In this document: positions 37,829 to 43,737 of the stretch, in pieces | Numbering within the stretch: the stretch's first letter is position 1 | Layout: each line of letters opens with the position of its first letter | Assembly: GCA_002782005.1 (NCBI GenBank) | Contig: PFGT01000116.1 | Location: 1 to 47,197, forward strand | Source: Hydrogenophilales bacterium CG12_big_fil_rev_8_21_14_0_65_61_21 | GTDB taxonomy: Bacteria > Pseudomonadota > Gammaproteobacteria > Burkholderiales > Thiobacillaceae | Length of the DNA: 47,197 nucleotides | Direction of reading: 5' to 3' | Made by a program: the position numbers and the translations under genes | The notes under the pieces: generated by a model | Told to the model about the DNA's origin: nothing | Database searches by the model: none | The model's input: the letters and a program-made list of their open reading frames with translations, nothing else

Positions 37829-37851
37829 TTCACCATATTAACCGCTGCTGT

Positions 37852-37880
37852 TTGGTTTGCGTCGCTTGCGGCATTATGAT
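37852..37880 (+). promoter_or_regulatory. Candidate promoter giving a leaderless transcript for the HTH-ferredoxin gene
   Basis: TTGGTT (37852-37857), 17 bases, then TATGAT (37875-37880). The -10 matches 5 of 6 positions and the -35 matches 3 of 6. The expected start, 7-8 bases after the -10, falls at about 37887-37888, i.e. on the ATG at 37888, which lacks a ribosome site. Confidence 0.4.
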
Positions 37881-37887
37881 TAACACC

Positions 37888-39339
37888 ATGAGCCACTATC
37901 TACCCCTTGCCCGCGTCGCCCGTCTGGTCGGTGTTACCCGTTCAACCCTGCAGCGGATGATCCGCGACGGCGAGATGATGACCTTTGACGGCCAGATTGA
38001 GCTGGATGAATTGCTGCGCGTCTTTCCAAATATCAAATGGCAGGCGGACGGCGAATACGAGCGAGTCGAGGAGATCAAGCGCAAGGCCTTCGGCAAGCGG
38101 GTCATGGAGCGCGCGCTACCGGACAAGGAGGTATTGGCCGAGCGCCTGTTTGAACTCGGCAAGGAGTTTGCCGGCGCCAAGTCCATGCTGATCTACTACG
38201 ACCAGATTTTCCGCTGGCTGGAAACCAAGATGGATGCTGTGGCAGAGGACGATCCCGAGGCATTCGATGCCCTGCAATCGCTGAAAATATGGCTGCGCCA
38301 GGAACTGGACGCCGTCCCCGAAGAGGCGGAACGCGGCAAGGCGTTGCTCGCCGAGGAGAGTGTTATGCGTGTCATGTCCGCCCGTGTTACGGTTCAACCG
38401 AGCGGCCACGAATTCTTCGTCGAAGGTAACGATACCCTGCTCGAAGCCGCGCTACGGGCCGGCATCTCGCTCAACTATGGGTGCAGCAACGGTAACTGCG
38501 GCGAATGCAAGGTCCGGCTGGTTTCCGGCAAGGTCAAGAAGGTTCATCCTCATGATTATGTATTCCACGAAAGCGACAAGGCCAACGGCGCCATCTTGAT
38601 GTGCTCCTACACCGCGATCACCGATCTGGTGATCGAGGCCAGCGTGACCGAGGCCGATGATATTCCTCACCAGTCGATTACCACCAAGGTCCGGTCAGTG
38701 GAGCCGCTGGACCACGATCTGACTGCGCTGCATCTGACCACGCCGCGTAGTCAACGACTGCACTTCCTGGCCGGGCAGTCGGTCAAGCTGACCACTGATG
38801 ACATCGGCGGCGAGTTCTATGTGGCCAGTTGCCCGTGTGAGGACAGACATATCGAACTGCATATTCGTCGTGACAACACGCCGTTTTCTCGCAAGGTATT
38901 CAACGATCTGGGCAAGGAAGCGCCAGTCATTCTCGACGGTCCTCATGGTCACTGCGTCATCAAGATGGATTCCCGGCGCCCCGCTGTCTTCGTGGCCTGG
39001 GACGATGGCTTCGCGCCGATCAAGAGTCTGATCCAGCACGCCCTGTCGCTGGAGATGGCGGAGGGCATGGAACTGTTCTGGATCTCCGAGCGTTTGCCGC
39101 ATTACCAGGAAAACCTGTGCCGTTCATGGGCCGATGCCCTGGATAATTTCCACTATCGGCCATTGTTCGCCGCAGCGGGCGAAGAGGCCAATGTAGCCGC
39201 TATCCTGGCCGAACATCCGGACTTGAGCCGAGCCGACTTCTATGTCGCCGGCCCGGCCGGTTTTCTTGACCGGCTCAAGGCAGCCGCCATTGCCCGCAAT
39301 ATGTCGCCGCTCGGCTGGCATGGCGAAACCCTGCTTTGA
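37888..39339 (+). CDS. HTH / [2Fe-2S] ferredoxin / flavin-reductase fusion protein
   Basis: 483 aa three-part protein. Residues 5-50 (LPLARVARLVGVTRSTLQR) look like a MerR/excisionase-type helix-turn-helix. Residues about 55-155 are helical and charged. Residues about 165-250 form a plant-type ferredoxin domain with all four cluster cysteines (Cys199, 204, 207, 239). The rest resembles an FAD/NAD(P) oxidoreductase: the usual RxYS flavin motif is replaced by EFYVAS, and the NAD-site glycine motif reads AWDDGFAPIKS. The back half resembles CDP-6-deoxyglucoseen reductase-like and methane monooxygenase reductase-like proteins. Start choice: ATG 37888 over 37876, by domain start and promoter position. 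The substrate and the role of the HTH part are unknown. Confidence 0.82.
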   Translation: MSHYLPLARVARLVGVTRSTLQRMIRDGEMMTFDGQIELDELLRVFPNIKWQADGEYERVEEIKRKAFGKRVMERALPDKEVLAERLFELGKEFAGAKSMLIYYDQIFRWLETKMDAVAEDDPEAFDALQSLKIWLRQELDAVPEEAERGKALLAEESVMRVMSARVTVQPSGHEFFVEGNDTLLEAALRAGISLNYGCSNGNCGECKVRLVSGKVKKVHPHDYVFHESDKANGAILMCSYTAITDLVIEASVTEADDIPHQSITTKVRSVEPLDHDLTALHLTTPRSQRLHFLAGQSVKLTTDDIGGEFYVASCPCEDRHIELHIRRDNTPFSRKVFNDLGKEAPVILDGPHGHCVIKMDSRRPAVFVAWDDGFAPIKSLIQHALSLEMAEGMELFWISERLPHYQENLCRSWADALDNFHYRPLFAAAGEEANVAAILAEHPDLSRADFYVAGPAGFLDRLKAAAIARNMSPLGWHGETLL

Positions 39340-39367: not shown

Positions 39368-40033
39368 ATGAGCGCTCGGGTCATCGCGGTAGTCAACCAG
39401 AAGGGCGGCGCCGGCAAAAGCACCCTGACCATGCTGCTGGCCGGCGCCTTGGCCGAGAAAGGCCATCGCGTCCTGGTGGCCGATGGTGACTCGCAGAATA
39501 CTGCCCTGCGCTGGGCCACCGCCGGTGAGGGTTTCCCAGCCGAGGTAGAGGACTTGTCGGGCGAGGAAGGGAAGTTGCACAAGCGTCTGCGAAAACGTCT
39601 CGACGACTACGACTACATCGTCATCGATAGTCCACCCGCCGCTGCCGCTCCGGTTACTGCCAGCGCCCTGCGCCTGGCCCATCTGGCCCTGGTGCCGGTG
39701 ATCCCGTCGCCCCTGGACCTGTGGGCCAGCCTGCGTATCCGCGACGCCATTTATGCTGCCCGCAGTAAAAATCCTATGCTGGAGGCACGCCTGGTGGTCA
39801 ATCAGGCACAGCCAAACACCGTGCTGGCCCGCGAGGTGTTAGCCATGTTGCCGGAATTTGGCATCCCTATGTTGGCCGCGCAACTAAAACAGCGCACCGC
39901 GTATCGCCAATGCGCCGCCTTGGGCGGCACGCTTTCCGGATTAGGCAGTCGGGCGGCTATCGCCAGCCTGGAATTAGCCTCGCTGTGTCGGGAAGTCGAA
40001 TCCATAATTGGCGCCATGAAGGTCATGGTTTAA
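39368..40033 (+). CDS. ParA/MinD-like ATPase (orphan)
   Basis: 221 aa P-loop ATPase with the deviant Walker A KGGAGKST (12-19), a Walker B-like YIVIDSPP segment, and VIPSPLDLWASLRIRD, a pattern of short ParA family proteins without an N-terminal DNA-binding domain. No parB, parS-like repeats or other partition gene lie beside it, so chromosome or plasmid partition is not implied. Such orphans can position cargo such as chemoreceptors or redox complexes. It lies 28 bases after the HTH-ferredoxin gene and 12 before galE, so it may be in one transcript with both. Confidence 0.85.
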   Translation: MSARVIAVVNQKGGAGKSTLTMLLAGALAEKGHRVLVADGDSQNTALRWATAGEGFPAEVEDLSGEEGKLHKRLRKRLDDYDYIVIDSPPAAAAPVTASALRLAHLALVPVIPSPLDLWASLRIRDAIYAARSKNPMLEARLVVNQAQPNTVLAREVLAMLPEFGIPMLAAQLKQRTAYRQCAALGGTLSGLGSRAAIASLELASLCREVESIIGAMKVMV

Positions 40034-42551: not shown

Positions 42552-43064
42552 GTGTTGAAAACATTCTCTTTGCCGAAACTGCCCTCCTTGCCCAAGCCGT
42601 TGTCCCGCCTGGCCTCGGCGCTGCCATCATTGCCGGTGTCGGCGGCGTTTGTGACGTTATTCAATCTAGCCGCTTGGCGGGGCCTGAAAGAGTTGGACTG
42701 GACCGCGCTTAACGGCAAGCGGTTTTGCGTCCAGGTCCGCGACCTGGGGATAAGCAGCTATTTCTCCGTGACCGGACGCGGCCTGCGTCCAGAGATGGCC
42801 GATCATGCTGATGTCACCTTTACCGCCACGGCTCAGGATTTCACCCGCCTGGCTCTGCGCCTGGAAGACCCGGATACCTTGTTTTTCAACCGCAGGCTGT
42901 CGATCGAGGGCAATACCGATCTGGGTCTGACGGTGAAGAACATGCTCGATGCAGTGGAACTGGATAGCATCCTGGCGGCCATGCCGATGCCCCTGGCGCG
43001 GCTGTTGTCGGGTGTGCGTCGGCGCATGGTTGAAGCCGACAGCGCCGCCGGCCAGCCGGCTTGA
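42552..43064 (+). CDS. ubiT: UbiT, SCP2-domain accessory factor for O2-independent ubiquinone synthesis
   Basis: 170 aa SCP2-type lipid-binding protein. After a Pro/Leu-rich amphipathic N terminus (1-30), the core carries the UbiT hallmark DPDTLFFNRRLSIEGNTDLG and then VKNMLDAVELD. This distinguishes it from the aerobic factor UbiJ, which is longer and has a coiled coil. UbiT works with the U32 proteins UbiU and UbiV in anaerobic ubiquinone synthesis in E. coli and other proteobacteria; neither is in the window. Start is GTG 42552, with AAGG seven bases upstream; the nearby ATG at 42540 is out of frame and stops after six codons. Confidence 0.83.
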   Translation: MLKTFSLPKLPSLPKPLSRLASALPSLPVSAAFVTLFNLAAWRGLKELDWTALNGKRFCVQVRDLGISSYFSVTGRGLRPEMADHADVTFTATAQDFTRLALRLEDPDTLFFNRRLSIEGNTDLGLTVKNMLDAVELDSILAAMPMPLARLLSGVRRRMVEADSAAGQPA

Positions 43065-43131: not shown

Positions 43132-43737
43132 ATGTCCTACCCTGCCTTTTTCGCCGAGGTTCCGCCGTTGCGCCTGTATGACCCCTTGGCCGAGCTGCTT
43201 GGCGCGGCCGAGGGCGGCCTGCTCGAATATCGCTATGAAGACGCGGTCAAGCTGGCCGGTCATTCCTGCCCGACCGTCGCCGGCGCCTGGCTGATGACCC
43301 GGCTGGCGCTCGGCCGCTTGTACCCGGATGACCTGCCCCGGCGCGGCGGCATCGGCGTTGAATTGCGTGACCGTCAGGATGCTGGGGTGGCCGGCGTCGT
43401 CGGCGCGGTGCTCGGTCTTTTGACCGGGGCGGCGGGTGAGGGTGGTTTCAAGGGCGTCAATGGCCACCATGCCCGCCGGGGCCTGCTGCATTACGGTGTC
43501 GCCATGGCCGCCGAGGCGCGTTTTACCCGCCAGGATAGCGGCGCTAGCGTCGCCGTAGCCTACAACCCGGCGTCGGTGCAGCCCGATCCGGCCATGCCGG
43601 CGCTGATGAAAAGGTGTTTCGCTGGCGAAGCGAACGCTGAACAGCGAGTTGCCTTCGGACGACTGTGGCAGGATCGGGTGCGGCGCATACTGCTGGAGCA
43701 TGGTGACGACCCGGAGGTAGTCCAGATCGTTGCTTGA
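43132..43737 (+). CDS. FmdE-like protein of unknown function
   Basis: 201 aa soluble protein. The segment KLAGHSCPTVAG (His44, Cys46) followed by an alpha-helical AWLMTRLALG stretch resembles the metal-binding GHxCPG region of FmdE, a family named from formylmethanofuran dehydrogenase operons but widespread in bacteria without methanogenesis. Here Pro-Thr replaces the usual Pro-Gly. It also has a Gly-rich middle (VVGAVLGLLTGAAGEGGF). Function unknown; a metal- or sulfur-linked redox role is a guess. GGAG lies six bases before ATG 43132. The upstream Fnr-type box and ubiT hint at low-oxygen expression. radA begins 74 bases downstream. Confidence 0.6.
   Translation: MSYPAFFAEVPPLRLYDPLAELLGAAEGGLLEYRYEDAVKLAGHSCPTVAGAWLMTRLALGRLYPDDLPRRGGIGVELRDRQDAGVAGVVGAVLGLLTGAAGEGGFKGVNGHHARRGLLHYGVAMAAEARFTRQDSGASVAVAYNPASVQPDPAMPALMKRCFAGEANAEQRVAFGRLWQDRVRRILLEHGDDPEVVQIVA

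Follow-up and report, generated by a model that had tools for sequence, protein, structure and literature searches.

A plant-type ferredoxin followed by a module of the FNR fold is the architecture of the reductases BenC, T4moF, GcoB and CarAd, which we take to form the class IB oxygenase reductases. Proteins of the BenC type carry the flavin motif RxY[ST] and the NAD loop GGGxG. Among regulators with a helix-turn-helix (HTH), those of the MerR type have a long dimerising helix, and SoxR works as an HTH regulator with a redox-active [2Fe-2S] cluster. Here we describe a gene of Hydrogenophilales bacterium CG12_big_fil_rev_8_21_14_0_65_61_21 (contig PFGT01000116.1; the entire analyzed stretch of 47,197 nt is called the window) whose product of 483 amino acids (aa) joins a predicted winged HTH (wHTH), a helical region, a [2Fe-2S] ferredoxin domain and a degenerate FNR-fold module. 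The fusion belongs to a two-part family that is linked to oxidative (reverse) Dsr (rDsr) sulfur metabolism, and it probably serves bacterial sulfur oxidation as a sensor or helper.

Among the routes by which bacteria oxidize sulfur, rDsr is a major one. According to excerpts of the respective articles, DsrL is an iron–sulfur oxidoreductase of this pathway that carries two-[4Fe-4S] ferredoxin domains and Rossmann FAD/NAD(P) domains (PMC7596348), the functions of DsrL, DsrR and DsrS were called unresolved in 2011 (PMC3368242) and that of DsrT was unknown in 2024 (PMC11406059). Excerpts of a further article describe sHdrR and SoxR of Hyphomicrobium as ArsR-type sulfane-sulfur repressors with two conserved cysteines, which serve thiosulfate oxidation (Sox/sHdr; PMC12423496).

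A two-part family linked to dsr genes

The fusion gene (37888..39339, + strand) reads as a single open frame of 483 aa plus stop codon. The initial annotation, made from the letters of the window, had placed an HTH, a helical linker, a ferredoxin and a degenerate FNR module in this frame, and profiles and structure models confirmed that order. In the genome_contigs scan relatives were encoded in 57 of the 68 stretches matching the peptide pattern, with identities to the 483-aa protein of 93 to 40%, and because the alignment starts at residue 1 in 55 of these 57 we regard the frame as genuine and not as a product of chance; a chance fusion or an assembly error is ruled out by the full-length conservation. 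Conservation of the domain order in other betaproteobacteria, which the initial annotation had looked for in support of a sensor role, was observed and extends further: homologues across beta- and gammaproteobacteria share the same N terminus down to 40% identity, and the titles of the relatives include Hydrogenophilus, Thiobacillus, Parasulfuritortus, Rhodocyclaceae, Thiohalophilus, Thiotrichales and a Beggiatoa relative. Some match was obtained in 59 of 61 genomes (the window's own and near relatives), many of the weaker ones being an HTH-less reductase paralogue. In an alignment of 48 fused sequences R9, L13, R18, Q22, G35, L42 and P47 of the HTH region are invariant, as are the four cluster cysteines, C315-P316-C317, N409, R412 and W414. 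In the gene of the closest relative (93%, a Hydrogenophilus metagenome-assembled genome; L001, G006:C6:21749-23197) a stop codon falls about 20 residues short of the usual C terminus.

Co-occurrence was analyzed in a fixed set of 369 genomes from one class, with E≤1e-70 as threshold for the full protein or the ferredoxin–FNR module with its Cys-Pro-Cys motif (CPC module) and E≤0.001 for the N-terminal domain. The full protein or CPC module was found in 50 genomes and the HTH domain in 63; dsrA was present in 118, soxB in 151 and RuBisCO in 176. The HTH domain overlaps with dsrA in 57 of its 63 genomes (odds ratio 38), with soxB in 54 (13) and with RuBisCO in 54 (9), and the corresponding values for the CPC module are 45 of 50 (odds ratio 30), 44 of 50 (14.5) and 43 of 50 (8.6). 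Either part is carried by 8 of 13 genomes with dsrA and without soxB, by 4 of 46 with soxB and without dsrA, and by 3 of 75 with RuBisCO and without dsrA. The HTH and CPC parts thus follow dsr more closely than they follow sulfur lithotrophy in general. Six carriers lack dsrA (G127, G238, G246, G345, G377 and G415), three of which are only 72–81% complete. Among near relatives dsrA was present in 9 of 10 family genomes searched. The window's genome itself holds dsrA plus, on the same 19-kb stretch, frames readable as dsrB, E, F, H, C, M, K, L, O, P, N and R, where DsrA and DsrC were named from profiles, DsrN and DsrR from similarity to proteins of locus L120 (which match CobB-type and IscA-type profiles) and the rest from order and sequence. 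In the same genome an inverted repeat, CTGTTTTG and CAAAACAG, lies at the end of the dsrA frame, ahead of dsrB (L202:16975-17004).

The two parts occur fused, split and alone. Going by the length of the open frames, the fusion is present in 34 of the 63 HTH genomes; in three (G144, G268, G395) the HTH and CPC parts are separated by one stop, and in the remaining 26 the HTH frame measures 143–214 aa. The HTH also exists as a stand-alone protein of about 145 aa. We covered 20 regions around such HTH frames: in L172, L173, L174 and L176, and by match coordinates in G185, the HTH frame lies directly beside a CPC frame, and in the other 15 no CPC frame is among the neighbours listed. In a tree of 62 CPC modules, with 19 of 57 inner branches unresolved, the 37 fused rows fall together with two label changes and one HTH-less row inside, while the split rows fall among the HTH-less rows (two rows labeled HTH-less, L132 and L127, are the split G361 and G185). 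On the simplest reading there would have been one fusion event followed by a loss.

In L120 and L134 an HTH-less CPC gene comes after genes in the order dsrO-P-N-R-S, and in L126 after a dsrS-like gene, which makes 3 of 20 HTH-less loci. The distance between HTH-less CPC genes and dsrA is 2.4 to 13 kb in G371, G307, G075 and G148. The label DsrS-like is putative and was assigned from the position after DsrN and DsrR, and for L134 by similarity to L120; the proteins of L120 and L126 gave zero Pfam or NCBIfam matches. A DsrC-family gene adjoins the fused gene in L041 and lies near the HTH-only gene in L178. Six fused genes are followed by a MoxR gene (L044, L045, L049, L052, L053, L155), five of them with a DUF2201 protein nearby, and the MoxR/DUF2201 pair recurs in L126 near the dsrS-like gene and the CPC gene. 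Near family members in L126 (3167-4210), L119, L046 and L054 we also noticed a protein of the Sfum_1244 family (NF045620). Because both parts co-occur with dsrA and some HTH-less copies lie in dsr clusters, we link the family to rDsr metabolism. The initial annotation had recognized the domains and missed this link to sulfur oxidation, the invariant CPC motif and the split and HTH-less forms.

The placement of HTH-less copies after a dsrS-like gene also fits a different role, that of an electron- or sulfur-transfer component of rDsr, in which the ferredoxin would carry electrons, the CPC motif would perform persulfide/disulfide chemistry and the HTH would dock a partner. The initial annotation had proposed either a redox-responsive regulator or an electron-transfer protein with an HTH for protein contacts, and both roles are kept here as candidates. 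Invariant cluster ligands and CPC cysteines are what such a carrier would need, but an HTH that stands alone, with no CPC frame among its neighbours in most of the regions covered, would be odd if its task were docking only.

Cysteine motifs and the altered reductase module

The plant-type [2Fe-2S] ferredoxin domain covers residues 167–240 (38386..38607, + strand; Pfam Fer2, E 3.5e-13), and Fer2 matches 48 of 48 members. Its predicted cluster ligands are C199-X4-C204-X2-C207-X31-C239, with all four cysteines present in 68 of 68 aligned sequences, so the complete four-cysteine domain of the initial annotation stands. The FNR-fold module follows at residues 262–483 (38671..39336, + strand). In the full-length model (mean predicted local distance difference test score, pLDDT, 84; predicted template modeling score, pTM, 0.68) the FNR part superimposes on E. 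coli Fre (1qfj) with Z 25.3 and a root-mean-square deviation (rmsd) of 2.4 over 211 residues, while the ferredoxin-plus-FNR part matches GcoB and T4moF with a large rmsd that reflects differing domain placement. Sequence relatives in the PDB are T4moF, GcoB, the CarAd reductase, Fre, BenC and plant-type ferredoxins; the matches listed cover only the region after residue 158. A known reductase family carrying this N terminus, which would have spoken against the initial annotation, did not appear.

The altered flavin and NAD motifs that had been noticed in the single sequence are real and family-wide. At the RxYS motif the arginine position is glycine in 39 of 48 fused members and the serine position is mostly Tyr, Ala or Pro; the tyrosine is retained in 42 of 48. 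In the former NAD glycine loop (residues 370–377, AWDDGFAP; 38995..39018, + strand) the Gly-Gly pair is lost, position 371 being W, F, C, Y or V and position 372 D, G, E or N, with G in 14 of 48 fused members. More of the flavin motif survives in the HTH-less members, with Arg in 13 of 20 and Ser in 11 of 20, so their cofactor may be a different one.

Directly after the former RxYS flavin strand lies the CPC motif (residues 315–317; 38830..38838, + strand), which is invariant in 68 of 68 aligned sequences; both of its cysteines occur in every fused (48 of 48) and every HTH-less sequence (20 of 20). A second, family-specific motif, N409-x-C411-R412-x-W414 (39112..39129, + strand), is invariant at N409, R412 and W414 in 48 of 48, and C411 is found in 47 of 48 fused and 17 of 20 HTH-less sequences (64 of 68). 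The 483-aa protein has eight cysteines, at positions 199, 204, 207, 239, 315, 317, 356 and 411.

A working NAD(P)H/flavin reductase of the BenC/T4moF type whose N terminus is unusual would account for the intact FNR fold of the model, for the relationship to NCBIfam BenC (E 2.5e-24) and Fre, for the retained tyrosine and for the arginine of many HTH-less members. Also in its favor, FAD_binding_6 matches 43 and NAD_binding_1 26 of 48 members at E≤0.1, FAD_binding_6 being present below the Pfam cut-off in the 483-aa protein; these profiles respond to the fold and not to the motif alone. However, both curated NCBIfam cut-offs are missed by far (BenC, 86 against 430 bits), and the window's genome already has a canonical HTH-less paralogue with the motifs RSFS, GGTGFAP and CGAPPM (L136). 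No oxygenase was recognized beside the fusion gene in the neighbour lists, no profile search having been aimed at oxygenases. Since residues of the flavin and NAD sites are lost, a plain NAD(P)H reductase is improbable, and the module is apparently a disabled flavin reductase.

Predicted winged HTH, promoter region and proposed function

Residues 1–48 (37888..38031, + strand) are predicted to form an HTH plus wing of the BldC/Xis/MerR type, with the elements E4-6, H7-14, H18-26, E36-38 and H39-45. When residues 1–163 were modeled separately (mean pLDDT 79.8, pTM 0.41), the top solved fold was DNA-bound BldC (VIA Z 6.1, rmsd 2.2 over 49; Foldseek probability 0.98–0.99, E 0.2), followed by Pukovnik Xis (Z 5.7) and then by MerR-type regulators including SoxR; CbpM is likewise among the fold matches. 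Modest Z values and a small domain (49 residues) qualify these matches, and a family missing from such lists, e.g. ArsR, is not thereby excluded. At E≤0.1 HTH_17 is detected in 18 of the 48 full-length members, and the excisionase profile TIGR01764 matches 19 of 26 N-terminal pieces of relatives at E≤1. When the first 60 residues of ten relatives were scanned alone, two passed the HTH_17 cut-off of 27 bits (L045, 29.6; L057, 28.6) and none the TIGR01764 cut-off of 28.8 (best L057, 28.7). Thus residues 1–60, whose failure against all HTH profiles would have spoken against the initial annotation, do match profiles, and its MerR/excisionase-like HTH is supported by the predicted fold and by two relatives, although not by the protein's own sub-cut-off scores. 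The helical region (residues 53–163; 38044..38376, + strand) is modeled as a hairpin and has long predicted helices at residues 80–121, 123–141 and 145–162 and the invariant residues A67, P78, L83 and R86. It is a possible dimerisation or sensor arm; residues 51–80 are the lowest-confidence part of the models.

The divergent region between the fusion gene and a gene on the − strand that we read as recJ is 59 bp long (37829..37887), and recJ matches were found in 40 of the 57 loci of relatives. It contains an element ATATT-N8-CTGTTTKG (37835..37855) that is identical in 21 of 21 upstream regions compared, a comparison that leaves out L006, L014, L015 and L016 (the recJ-type loci L006, L015 and L016 differ). 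ATATTA, reading TAATAT on the recJ strand, is a possible recJ −10 sequence. On the + strand a −10-like TATGAT (37875..37880; TA--AT columns in 21 of 21) ends 7 nt before the ATG, and the fusion gene may start leaderless. Both genes look leaderless, with −10-like hexamers ending 6–7 nt before each start codon. The exact element was found in 12 of 37 family genomes at one site each, 11 at the fusion-gene promoter and one elsewhere (G011); this uniqueness is not evidence of regulation, the pattern having been derived from the site.

We favor, at a probability of about 0.4, a wHTH protein of the rDsr pathway that responds to redox state or to sulfane sulfur. In this reading the helical arm would dimerise the HTH, and a [2Fe-2S] cluster, if the ferredoxin domain is occupied, would report together with the CPC dithiol the redox or sulfane-sulfur state arising from Dsr metabolism. 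With this state the binding of the HTH would change, the simplest site being the gene's own promoter, divergent from that of recJ, and outside the window's lineage the HTH would act on other sulfur-related targets. Two findings speak for a regulator: the solved structures closest to the N-terminal model are BldC, Xis and MerR proteins, and the HTH also stands alone. The co-occurrence with dsrA, the invariant CPC motif and the element conserved in the 21 divergent regions compared count for the favored reading as well. Rather doubtful is the more specific proposal of a dedicated rDsr transcription sensor made of a wHTH and a reductase turned sensor, in which the ferredoxin and the CPC motif on a flavin-less FNR scaffold would jointly read redox state and sulfane sulfur and the HTH subunit would also work alone in other sulfur oxidizers.

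Several observations, besides the FAD_binding_6 and NAD_binding_1 matches mentioned above, weigh against the favored reading. On the side of the protein, its own scores remain below the cut-offs (HTH_17, 16.9 against 27 bits; TIGR01764, 20.4 against 28.8) and eight of the ten N-terminal pieces of relatives miss the HTH_17 cut-off. The wing is short (F-[DE]-G) with zero basic residues, and the net charge of the fused HTH (residues 1–48, 48 sequences) ranges from −4 to +4 with a median of about zero. On the side of the promoter, the exact element is missing from 25 of 37 family genomes, and instead of an operator it may represent a back-to-back pair of leaderless promoters. In 11 dsrA loci from 10 family genomes the half-element CTGTTTKG did not turn up upstream of dsrA; it occurs there only downstream of dsrA (L199, L202) and once far away in L202; a dsr regulon controlled through this element is therefore unsupported. 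A Thiobacillus-type inverted repeat, CAGAATC-N12-GATTCTG, is weakly conserved, as its 6+6 core is exact in one of six genomes and the longer pattern with up to three mismatches occurs in two of four. On the side of the genomes, neither part is present in 54 of 118 dsrA-positive genomes, so the family is not universal among them, and no sulfur genes lie near family members outside Hydrogenophilaceae in most gene maps listed. The carriers span 38 families, 36 of which include a dsrA-positive carrier, but the genome counts are not phylogenetically independent and the co-occurrence p-values, for which genomes were treated as independent, overstate certainty. Finally, an excerpt of PMC11406059 reports that DsrR takes part in regulating sulfur oxidation.

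The charge of the HTH bears on the transfer component introduced above as well. Over 56 residues each, the DNA-binding controls SoxR, AlpA, CueR and ZntR have charges of +8, +4, +3 and +1, and the MerR-like, protein-binding CbpM has −7; stand-alone HTH copies range from −4 to +7 (19 copies). The near-neutral fused HTH with its short wing lies between these controls, and charge does not decide whether it binds DNA. The presence of CbpM in the fold-match list suits a docking HTH, but the closest matches among solved structures bind DNA. Given a non-basic HTH and a search that revealed no operator in common with dsr genes, we consider a transfer component, tentatively, to be nearly as likely as the redox- or sulfane-sulfur-responsive protein.

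Downstream of the fusion gene, at a distance of 28 bp, lies a gene (39368-40033) for a ParA family partition ATPase (NF041546, 185.5 bits against a cut-off of 180), which raises the idea of a cargo adaptor or chromosome anchor working with this ATPase. A ParA match was found in 9 of the 57 genome_contigs loci, but there is none in the other 48, some of which end at contig ends, the neighbours there are different and the association with dsr would be left unexplained; because of the low count we regard a ParA partnership as very improbable. An Xre/MbcA/ParS-like protein adjoins fused or stand-alone HTH genes in L057, L048, L150, L179, L180, L182 and L184, where the label comes from a weak sub-cut-off Pfam match in L057 and the other loci are alike by eye. 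A Cys-containing protein of about 150 aa (L057:3177-3635) clusters with counterparts close to fused or HTH-less genes, 11 loci in all, in which L141 duplicates the genome of L057; the L057 copy gave zero Pfam or NCBIfam matches. Farther along the window we noted a UbiT-like SCP2 protein (42552-43064; NF047962 above cut-off), an accessory factor of anaerobic ubiquinone biosynthesis, and an FmdE-like domain (43132-43737; Pfam 23.6 against a cut-off of 22.9) in a betaproteobacterial-type genome. Plasmid carriage is unsupported, as a tblastn search against a plasmid collection gave zero matches at 1e-40.

Comparison with known systems

The BenC, T4moF, GcoB and CarAd reductases share with the fusion the order of plant-type ferredoxin and FNR-fold module and are its best sequence and fold matches. 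In contrast to them the fusion has an additional wHTH and helical arm and invariant CPC and NxCRxW motifs, and it lacks the flavin Arg and Ser (RxY[ST] is seen in the T4moF and GcoB alignments) and the NAD Gly-Gly. With the winged HTH proteins of the BldC, Xis and MerR type it shares the predicted order of HTH and wing, whereas its wing is non-basic and short, its charge near neutral and its own profile scores are below the cut-offs.

SoxR, which is in the fold list, offers an analogy only, that of an HTH combined with a redox-active [2Fe-2S] cluster: the SoxR cluster sits in a short C-terminal CXXCXC-X5-C motif, which is not found among the eight cysteines of the 483-aa protein, while that of the fusion would lie in a complete ferredoxin domain ahead of an FNR fold. 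As far as the excerpts describe them, sHdrR and SoxR of Hyphomicrobium provide a possible analogy for sulfane-sulfur sensing, but they are of the ArsR type, for which the 483-aa protein gave no match at E≤1 in Pfam or NCBIfam, and belong to Sox/sHdr rather than Dsr. The [4Fe-4S] and Rossmann FAD/NAD(P) domains given for DsrL in the excerpts have no counterpart in the fusion at E≤1 in the same collections.

An HTH and a ferredoxin–CPC pair that track dsrA provide a concrete candidate for a missing rDsr sensor or carrier, and the fusion may be a case of a redox enzyme turned signaling module. No name for the HTH–ferredoxin–FNR fusion was found in the titles and abstract openings that searches of the open-licence PMC literature listed, a collection that lacks most subscription papers, among them work on dsr regulation in Allochromatium. 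Iron–sulfur HTH regulators and ferredoxin–FNR reductases are each known; their combination, with a CPC motif and linkage to dsr, was not seen under any name in these listings and appears to be new.

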